Of a stretch of DNA of 64,000 bases, positions 9,375-12,149 are shown in pieces; the stretch's first letter is position 1, and the number at the start of each line of letters is the position of its first letter. Source of the stretch: Beijerinckiaceae bacterium. Its GTDB lineage: Bacteria; Pseudomonadota; Alphaproteobacteria; Rhizobiales; Beijerinckiaceae. Where the stretch lies: NCBI GenBank assembly GCA_947453205.1, contig CANGFT010000006.1:1-64000 (forward strand). The letters run 5' to 3'. Made by a program: the position numbers and the translations under genes. The notes under the pieces were generated by a model. It was given only the letters and a program-made list of their open reading frames with translations, had not been told where the DNA came from and did no database searches.

Positions 9375-12149
9375 ATGAAGCGACTTGCACGACTCTCGAC
9401 GGCCTGTCTGGCCATTTTCTCCCTGCTGGCCGAAACCATGGTCCCGGCTGTGGCCCAGATCGCGCCGCCCGGCCAGGCAGAGGCCCGTTTCGCCTTCGTC
9501 ATCGGCAATGACGGCTATGAAGCCGCGCCGCTGCCCAGCGCCGCCAATGACGCGGGCCTCGTGGCCGAGACCCTGCGCAGCGCCGGCTTCGACATCACCG
9601 GCGCCAGAAACCTCGATCAGGACACGTTCCGCGCCTCCTATCGCGAATTCGTCGAGAAGGTCGGCGCCGCCGGGCCGAACGCCGTCGCCGCCGTCTATCT
9701 CTCGGGCTTCGGGCTGCAGGTCGAAGGCGAGAATTATTTCGTGCCGGTCGGCAGCCGCGTGCAGCGTGACAGCGACGTCGCCATTCAGGCGATCCGCATC
9801 TCCGACCTGACCCGCGCCCTCAGCGGCCAGCCGGGCAAGGCCAACATCGTGATGCTGGACCTCGCCTATGACGGTCCCTTCGACAAGCAGGGACAACCGC
9901 TGGCGCCCGGCCTCGCCATCGTGGAGCCCGAGCCCAAGACGCTGATCGCCTTCAACACCGCGCCCGGCGCCTATGCGCCCATCCCCAGGGGCGACTATGG
10001 CCCCTATGCGCAGGCGGTCTCGGAGACCCTGCGCATCGCAGGACTGCCGGTCGATGATGTCTTCGCCCGTGTGCGCACCCGCACGGCCGAACTGACCAAG
10101 AGCACGCAGATCCCCTGGAACGCCAGCCGCATCGATCCGAACTATGAGCTGCTCGAGCGCGCCCCCGACGCGCCAGCCCTGCCGGCGACGCCCGCCCAGC
10201 GGCAGCAATCCCGCAGCCGTCCGATTCAGGACTTCACCGAGGCGGACGCCTATGCGGCGGCGCTCGACCGCGATTCCATCCAGGCCTATCAGGACTTCCT
10301 CGCGGTCTATCCCAACAGCCCCTACGCCAAGACCGTGCGCGGCCTGCTGGCGGCCCGGCGCGAGGCGCTGACCTGGCGGCGCACGGCCGTCGCCAATACG
10401 CCCAACGCCTATTGGTCCTATCTGGACCGCTACCCGCGCGGCCCCCATGCGACCGACGCGCGGCGTCGGCTGGCGCGGCTGGGCGCCCCTCTGACGCCCC
10501 CGTCAGGCTTTGACGCCATTTTCTATGAAGAGGCGCCGCCGCCGAGCTACGAGGCTTTCTACTTCGACGCGCCCGCCCCTTATTACTTCGACGACGACGG
10601 CCTGCCGCCGCCGCGCGTGGCCTTCATGCCGCCGCCGCCGCCGTGGTGGGCTCCCCCGCCGCCGCCGCCGCGTGATCTGTATCGCGACGAGATCTATTTC
10701 CTCCCGACGCCCTATGAGCCCCCGCCCCCCGTCTGGGTGCGCCCGCCCGCCTATGTGGCCGCGCCGCCCCGGCATCAGCATGACTCGGGCGGCGGCATCC
10801 TTCCCTATGTGGCGATTCCCGCCGCGCTGGCGGCTGGCATCGTCGCGGGCAAGATCATCAGCGACCGGCGCCGCGACTCCGGCGGACAGCGCCCGCAAGG
10901 CGGTCCCGGCGGATTCGGCGGCCAGCCCCCCGCCGGACAAGCGCCTGCAGGCCCGCCCGCAAGCGCGCGGCCTTTCATGCCGCCGGTGGCGACGCCCGCC
11001 CGGCCCATGACGCAGATCATCCAGCAGCAGGGTCAGGTGAGCGCGCCCGTGGCGCAGCCAGCGCAGCCGCAACCGCAGGCGCCCGGGCAGCTCCGTCCCG
11101 CCCTGCCCGGAACCTTCGGCGTTCCCGCGACGCCTGCGGCTCCGGGCGCTGGCGCTTCAGCACCGACCACGGCTCCTCAAACCCAGCCGCAACCGCAGGC
11201 GCCCGGCCTGCCCCGGCCTCCAGGCGCTCCGGGGGCGCCGACCACGCCGCCCACGCCCGGCGTTGGCGCTCCGCCGCCAGCGGGCGCCCTGCCGCGTCCA
11301 GCCCAGCCGGGAACGCCGCCTCCGGCGGTCGCCCCTCAGGCCCAGCCCCAGACGCCCCCGCCCGGCCTGCCCCGGCCTCCGGGCGCTCCAGCCGCGCCGA
11401 CGACGCCTCCCGCGCCCGGCGCTGGCGCTCCCCCGCCAGCAGGCGCCCTGCCGCGTCCAGCCCAGCCGGTGACGCCGCCTCCGGCGGTCGCTCCTCAGGC
11501 CCAGCCCCAGACGCCCCCGCCCGGCTTGCCGAGGCCTCCGGGCGCTCCGGCCGCGCCGACGACGCCTCCCACGCCCGGCGCTGGCGCTCCCCCGCCAGCA
11601 GGCGCCTTGCCGCGTCCAGCCCAGCCGGGAACCCCGCCTCCGGCGGTCCCCCCACAGGCCCAGCCCCAGTCGCCCCCGCCCGGCCTGCCAAGGCCGCCGG
11701 GAGCCACGCCGACCAGCCCTGCGCCATCCCCCGCACCCATGAGCGCGCCGCAACGCCCGGCCCCCACGAGCGCGCCGACGCAGCCAGCCCCGCCGCCCCA
11801 GCAACAGCAGCAGCAAATGCAAATGCAGCAACAGCAGCAGATGCAGGCCGAACAGCAACGCCGTGCGCAGGAGCAGCAACGCGCCATGGAGCAGCAGCGC
11901 GCCCAGCAGCAGCAGCAGGAGCAGCAACGACGCGCCCAGGAACAGCAGCGCGCCCAGGAACAACAGCGCGCCATGGAGCAACAACGCGCCCAACAGCAGC
12001 AGCAACAGATGCAGCAGCAACGCGCGATGGAGCAGCAGCGCCAGCAGCAAATGCAGCAACAACAACAGCAGCAGCAGCGCCAGCAGCAACAGCAGCCGCA
12101 GAGATCGCCCTATTGCGGCAATCCCGGCCAGCCAGCCTGCCCGCGCTGA
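9375..12149 (+). CDS. Caspase-fold (peptidase C14-like) protein with predicted inactive active site and a Pro/Gln-rich repetitive C-terminal region
   Basis: RFAFVIGNDGYEAAPLPSAANDAGLVAETLRSAGFDI...AAVYLSGFGLQVEGENYFVPVG...ANIVMLDLAYDGPF...LIAFNTAPGAYA matches the caspase p20 layout. A TPR/helical repeat, a TM segment (GGGILPYVAIPAALAAGIVAGKII) and a long P/Q tail follow. Confidence 0.85.
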   Translation: MKRLARLSTACLAIFSLLAETMVPAVAQIAPPGQAEARFAFVIGNDGYEAAPLPSAANDAGLVAETLRSAGFDITGARNLDQDTFRASYREFVEKVGAAGPNAVAAVYLSGFGLQVEGENYFVPVGSRVQRDSDVAIQAIRISDLTRALSGQPGKANIVMLDLAYDGPFDKQGQPLAPGLAIVEPEPKTLIAFNTAPGAYAPIPRGDYGPYAQAVSETLRIAGLPVDDVFARVRTRTAELTKSTQIPWNASRIDPNYELLERAPDAPALPATPAQRQQSRSRPIQDFTEADAYAAALDRDSIQAYQDFLAVYPNSPYAKTVRGLLAARREALTWRRTAVANTPNAYWSYLDRYPRGPHATDARRRLARLGAPLTPPSGFDAIFYEEAPPPSYEAFYFDAPAPYYFDDDGLPPPRVAFMPPPPPWWAPPPPPPRDLYRDEIYFLPTPYEPPPPVWVRPPAYVAAPPRHQHDSGGGILPYVAIPAALAAGIVAGKIISDRRRDSGGQRPQGGPGGFGGQPPAGQAPAGPPASARPFMPPVATPARPMTQIIQQQGQVSAPVAQPAQPQPQAPGQLRPALPGTFGVPATPAAPGAGASAPTTAPQTQPQPQAPGLPRPPGAPGAPTTPPTPGVGAPPPAGALPRPAQPGTPPPAVAPQAQPQTPPPGLPRPPGAPAAPTTPPAPGAGAPPPAGALPRPAQPVTPPPAVAPQAQPQTPPPGLPRPPGAPAAPTTPPTPGAGAPPPAGALPRPAQPGTPPPAVPPQAQPQSPPPGLPRPPGATPTSPAPSPAPMSAPQRPAPTSAPTQPAPPPQQQQQQMQMQQQQQMQAEQQRRAQEQQRAMEQQRAQQQQQEQQRRAQEQQRAQEQQRAMEQQRAQQQQQQMQQQRAMEQQRQQQMQQQQQQQQRQQQQQPQRSPYCGNPGQPACPR
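11205..11720 (+). repeat. 159-bp in-frame tandem repeat (three full copies plus a partial fourth)
   Basis: Units starting GLPRPPGA at 11205, 11364, 11523 and 11682 are spaced exactly 159 bp. 53-aa unit GLPRPPGAPAAPTTPPxPGAGAPPPAGALPRPAQPxTPPPAVAPQAQPQTPPP. Confidence 0.93.
11800..12105 (+). repeat. CAG/CAA (poly-Gln) low-complexity tract with QQRAMEQQRAQ/QEQQRAQ subrepeats
   Basis: Runs of cagcagcag/caacag encoding QQQQQQMQMQQQQQMQ... and repeated EQQRAMEQQRAQ. Confidence 0.9.

Follow-up and report, generated by a model that had tools for sequence, protein, structure and literature searches.

Why would a bacterium keep a protein with the fold of a caspase after both residues of its catalytic dyad have been replaced? 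The question is raised by a gene found in a stretch of 64,000 nucleotides, hereafter the window, from a Beijerinckiaceae genome (contig CANGFT010000006.1, assembly GCA_947453205.1). Our guess that the host lives in freshwater comes from how the samples of the closest records are named. Dead caspases of this kind are common in Rhizobiales, where they have no known function. A total of 561 pseudo-orthocaspases have been described in this order, among which the dyads Tyr-Ser, Tyr-Ala and Phe-Ser are the most frequent; the proteins with Tyr-Ser and Tyr-Ala mostly have long C-termini with no identifiable domains (Klemencic et al. 2019, PMC6426788).

The original prediction placed the caspase homologue at positions 9375-10500, an extent that takes in signal peptide, caspase domain and helical repeat; the protein, however, continues to position 12149. 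The gene is a single open reading frame on the forward strand (9375-12149), as are all the features given below, encoding 924 amino acids in one frame that is kept in relatives. Read from the sequence, it starts with a likely Sec-type signal peptide (residues 1-28, MKRLARLSTACLAIFSLLAETMVPAVAQ, 9375-9458) with an AxA-like cleavage site, and the N-termini of relatives are hydrophobic too, resembling this segment. The caspase domain (residues 38-251, 9486-10127), delimited by Pfam and supported by AlphaFold and Foldseek, is followed by a helical, TPR-like repeat (residues 286-369, 10230-10481) seen as helices in the AlphaFold model; Pfam recognises no TPR in the protein, and a profile search gave a weak match of this region to the TPR protein CpoB (E 0.0043).

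The remainder is, by composition, a low-complexity tail of about 540 residues (10503-12113), with 27% Pro, 18% Gln and 16% Ala. Tandem Repeats Finder detects in it 3.2 copies of a 159-bp repeat (a Pro-rich unit of 53 amino acids) at 11200-11701, with 91% matches, whose copy number may differ between strains. The tail also contains a hydrophobic segment (ILPYVAIPAALAAGIVAGKII, residues 475-495, 10797-10859; best 19-residue hydropathy 1.82) followed by SDRRR, which could be a membrane anchor. A comparable segment (hydropathy of at least 1.6) is present in 44 of the 78 long-tailed rows with a changed dyad and absent or weak in the other 34, so that a membrane anchor is not a family-wide trait. 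At the extreme C-terminus there is a Cys pair, CGNPGQPAC (12114-12140), which may form a disulfide; apart from one Cys in the signal peptide, these are the only Cys of the protein. Pairs of the CGxPGxPxC type terminate many proteins of the clade (L072, L003, L018, L034, L044 and others), and at the DNA level the CGNPGQPAC motif recurs only once elsewhere in the genome of the window. At least two Cys lie within the last 25 residues in 35 of the 78 long-tailed rows, a share that may in truth be higher, as the window protein was scored from an incomplete locus and other rows may end early at contig ends or at frameshifts in the repetitive tail.

The p20-like caspase fold that had been predicted is well preserved. 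Residues 38-251 match Pfam Peptidase_C14 (PF00656) with an E-value of 7.1e-26 and a score of 91.8 bits (cut-off 21.4), and the AlphaFold model built from 19 sequences for residues 36-376 reached a pLDDT of 90.8 and a pTM of 0.90. When this model was submitted to Foldseek, the MALT1 paracaspase came out as nearest in fold, with E-values down to about 1e-13; for its isolated caspase domain, 3v4o, E was 1.3e-12 and the TM-score normalised by that domain (TMt) was 0.78. Membership in the caspase fold thus holds over the p20 region. As for a p10 domain, which pseudo-orthocaspases are expected to lack, Pfam gives Peptidase_C14 only for the protein, but profile positions 149-209 align weakly to caspase p10 chains (E from 0.0002 to about 1). 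A match to enolase in a PDB search with the single sequence was discarded as a chance match; the alignment profile retrieved MALT1 and caspase p10 chains. The only NCBIfam match, to the EACC1-associated caspases (NF047832), stayed at 26.2 bits against a cut-off of 140.

Phe112 (codon 9708-9710) and Ala164 (codon 9864-9866) occupy the positions of the catalytic His and Cys, as had been proposed from these two codons. Both motifs align without gaps to those of intact relatives of the same family (YYAGHG and DACR), and a profile alignment likewise puts the two residues on the His and Cys of MALT1 (YYAGHG and DMCR); the placement comes from sequence and profile alignment and is not a measured superposition. 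A different catalytic pair was considered and rejected, since there is neither His nor Cys within residues 12-357, a range which includes the whole caspase domain. The protein therefore lacks the His-Cys dyad of active orthocaspases and metacaspases, and has instead what defines a pseudo-orthocaspase, namely a p20 domain in which one or both dyad residues, here both, are replaced. It does not belong to the FS-type pseudo-orthocaspases with TPR, because its dyad is Phe-Ala and Pfam sees no TPR, and the FS protein L064 falls outside its clade in the tree. As judged from its sequence, the window protein is a pseudo-orthocaspase, without a proteolytic dyad. The statement that bacterial caspase homologues with substituted dyads are a known class is borne out by the published survey (PMC6426788).

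Two Asp of the trypanosome metacaspase pocket accept basic residues (PMC6426788), and both have counterparts here, Asp59 (9549-9551), corresponding to TbMC2 Asp95 in the pocket for the basic P1 residue, and Asp162 (9858-9860), corresponding to TbMC2 Asp211, with the equivalence drawn from motif position and not from superposition. The first is Asp in 98% of 87 clade members and in 100% of 42 intact proteins, and the second is Asp in 100% of both sets. The pair of conserved acidic residues expected of pseudo-orthocaspases is thus present, by motif position, and its retention could be structural. Moreover, the clade has conserved residues of its own. In the clade alignment the motif YGPYA (residues 208-212, 9996-10010) replaces the NSPFT-type motif of intact relatives: Y208, G209 and A212 are found in 97%, 93% and 97% of the clade, where intact relatives mostly have N or H, S and T, and the position of G209 is Ser in all intact proteins. 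Together with L62, R86 and D144, these three residues are near-fixed in the clade and not in the intact proteins, which argues for a constraint of its own instead of decay. Intact relatives invariably have a D-G pair at 203-204; here this pair and the loop that follows are changed, and so the groove may not bind ligands in the manner of an active orthocaspase.

How far these changes extend was assessed in two samples, one of 99 genomes of the family, in which clear orthologues were taken at E-values of at most 1e-60, and one of 249 genomes of the order, which adds orthologues from other families. Orthologues occur in 44 of the 99 family genomes (46 genes). Over half of the family genomes sampled lack the gene, two of them from the same genus as the window's, and it is thus accessory. 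The named relatives come from Beijerinckiaceae, from other Rhizobiales, mostly as metagenome assemblies, and from Methylobacterium. Among 132 caspase domains, 42 have the His-Cys dyad and 87, from several families of the order, belong to the clade of the window protein. None of the 87 has Cys at the Cys site, which is Ala in 70, Ser in 12, Gly in two, and Glu, Pro and Thr in one each. The His site is lost in 84 and kept in three, and it varies freely (entropy of 2.4 bits): Tyr in 44, Arg in 16, Leu in six, Gln and Val in four each, Phe, His and Ile in three each, Glu in two, and Gly and Asp in one each. The substitution is therefore no sequencing error or strain-specific change, since no relative in the clade has an intact dyad; the separately assembled relative L072 has the identical Phe-Ala dyad.

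In a careful tree, computed without both catalytic columns and without nine rows that were long-branched or outside the clade, 83 pseudo-caspases and 40 intact proteins are split by one branch with support of 100/100, and a single change accounts for the dyad. The quick tree of all rows supports the clade of 87 with 88% and gives two changes in all. The simplest reading would be one ancient loss of the dyad for the clade, with the His site drifting later. Among the intact caspases of the tree, those closest to the clade also come from this order (L163-L167, L169, L170 and L047-L050), and the alignment of L047-L050 to the window protein spans the helical repeat region, up to residue 363-372. 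Caspase homologues with changed dyads also exist outside the clade, namely L063 (Val-Ser), L064 (Phe-Ser) and L069 (Tyr-Cys), and there has thus probably been more than one origin in the order. One genome of the order, G299, has at least three pseudo-caspase copies (L157 and L162, both Leu-Ser, and L168, Leu-Ala).

Since the loss of the dyad the gene has evolved under purifying selection, as supported by dN/dS values of 0.09-0.24 in comparisons of the window gene with six relatives over 341 codons. Gene order is also conserved around it: of 76 loci, 29 have a uracil-DNA glycosylase-like gene immediately upstream and 32 a hydroxyisobutyrate-type dehydrogenase downstream, with neighbours named by reading their sequences alone. 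This supports orthology. However, six genomes that have no caspase gene still carry the dehydrogenase, and relatives in several other families lack the surrounding block, so that the neighbours look like inherited order and not like a functional module; in function they look unrelated to the pseudo-caspase. Besides the pseudo-caspase and the uracil-DNA glycosylase-like gene, the ancestral block includes a sensor histidine kinase that has membrane segments, seen at L118:11393-12772 and at 33 further loci; no orthologue of this kinase adjoins the window gene. Elsewhere in the window, positions 1-2000 have a GC content of 0.50 against about 0.66 in the rest and are possibly acquired DNA, and an open reading frame on the reverse strand within this stretch (671-1426) reads as an FkbM-type methyltransferase.

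What, then, could such a protein do? Roles as decoy or dimer partner of an active caspase homologue, as that of cFLIP for caspase-8, are known for eukaryotic pseudo-caspases (PMC6426788), and 24 of the 44 carriers do hold at least one further Peptidase_C14 protein. However, in the remaining 20 it is the only one, so that this role cannot be general. The window's genome, rated 100% complete, is among these 20, with no other Peptidase_C14 protein found by Pfam, and in this genome the protein is unlikely to regulate a co-resident active caspase, barring one too divergent for Pfam; overall we regard such a role as improbable. A link to photosynthesis was proposed in 2019 from the orders in which these proteins occur (PMC6426788), and the window's genome does encode photosynthetic reaction-centre subunits. 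Genome by genome, however, the pseudo-caspase shows no association with photosynthesis, contrary to that proposal: in the family, 12 of 44 carriers and 14 of 55 non-carriers have reaction-centre genes (p = 1.0), and in the order seven of 28 carriers and 47 of 221 non-carriers do (p = 0.63). The tests assume independent genomes, an assumption that does not hold, and the two samples share a few genomes, but as many as 32 of the 44 family carriers have no reaction-centre gene at all, and a role as accessory factor of anoxygenic photosynthesis is very improbable. About equally hard to credit is a domain that is still a hydrolase by means of other residues: Ser stands at the Cys site in 12 of the 87 relatives, but Ala does in 70, the His site is free to vary and the caspase domain of the window protein has no His or Cys to offer. 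Even less can be said for a decaying gene. That many family genomes lack it, among them two of the same genus, and that its tail is very repetitive would fit decay, but the low dN/dS, the lack of internal stops among the matches listed in the family search and the Phe-Ala dyad shared with the separately assembled L072 speak against it.

A more serious contender is a structural protein of the envelope, in which the caspase fold would be a stable head without ligand, and the work would be done by the Pro/Gln-rich tail and the terminal Cys pair, spanning the periplasm or the peptidoglycan. The long repetitive tail of nearly all full-length relatives, the Cys pair in 35 of 78 rows and the freely varying former His site are in its favour. 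However, it is the head that is conserved, including the pocket Asp and the clade-specific residues, while the tail varies widely in sequence and length, and we consider this alternative rather doubtful. We lean, with some reserve, towards a secreted pseudo-orthocaspase that lost its dyad once, in an ancestor within the order, and has been kept since for a non-proteolytic job, as scaffold or sensor of the envelope. Retention for such a job is supported by the fold, by the loss of both residues, which is clade-wide, by purifying selection, by the kept pocket Asp and by the fact that no active partner is needed. The signal peptide would direct the protein to the periplasm, where the hydrophobic segment that follows the folded part might hold it at the membrane. 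An Arg/Lys-containing stretch of a partner would be bound uncut in the caspase groove, and the helical repeat and the long Pro/Gln tail would serve as spacer and docking surface, the whole protein acting as an envelope scaffold or sensor. The retained non-proteolytic role proposed originally thus finds backing in the clade-wide loss, the selection, the intact predicted fold and the conserved synteny; between scaffold and regulator, a binding scaffold that does not cut and is located in the envelope would be the most likely, a role that we infer. More tentatively, and with rather less confidence, the clade could be an envelope pseudo-caspase family of single origin with a new, conserved binding function, marked by the YGPYA-type motif and in many members by the terminal Cys pair, independent of any active caspase and unrelated to photosynthesis.

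The window protein belongs to the class of Rhizobiales pseudo-orthocaspases, mainly with a "YA" dyad, described in 2019. What is added here is that the clade has an apparently single, ancient origin under selection, that the protein does not depend on an active caspase, that it shows no association with photosynthesis and that the clade has a motif of its own. The loss of the dyad thus appears to be old, and a pseudo-caspase can be the only caspase homologue of a cell. Its function can be tested in a tractable carrier, since Methylobacterium holds a clear relative (L086). The open-access literature searched yielded no functional study on alphaproteobacterial pseudo-orthocaspases and a single one on a bacterial pseudo-orthocaspase, that of SyOC from Synechocystis PCC 6803, whose deletion raised the tolerance to oxidative stress (PMC7889975), indicating that a bacterial caspase homologue without the dyad can act without catalysis.

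The closest likeness is to the YA and YS pseudo-orthocaspases of Rhizobiales (PMC6426788), with which the window protein shares the order, the domain, a replaced dyad, a prolonged C-terminus free of identifiable domains and the acidic pocket. However, its Phe-Ala dyad is a minor variant in a mainly Tyr-Ala clade, with Phe at the His site in three of 87 members. The intact orthocaspase-like proteins of the order (L163-L167, L169, L170 and L047-L050) differ in keeping His and Cys (GHG or GHA, and DACR or DSCR) as well as the D-G pair at 203-204. MALT1 is the best structural match in the PDB (3v4o, TMt 0.78), and F112 and A164 fall on its His and Cys; however, this eukaryotic protease is active, has other domains and is about 17% identical. 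SyOC is likewise a bacterial caspase homologue without a catalytic dyad, but a cyanobacterial one, and the comparison is made at the level of the domain, with no shared role claimed.
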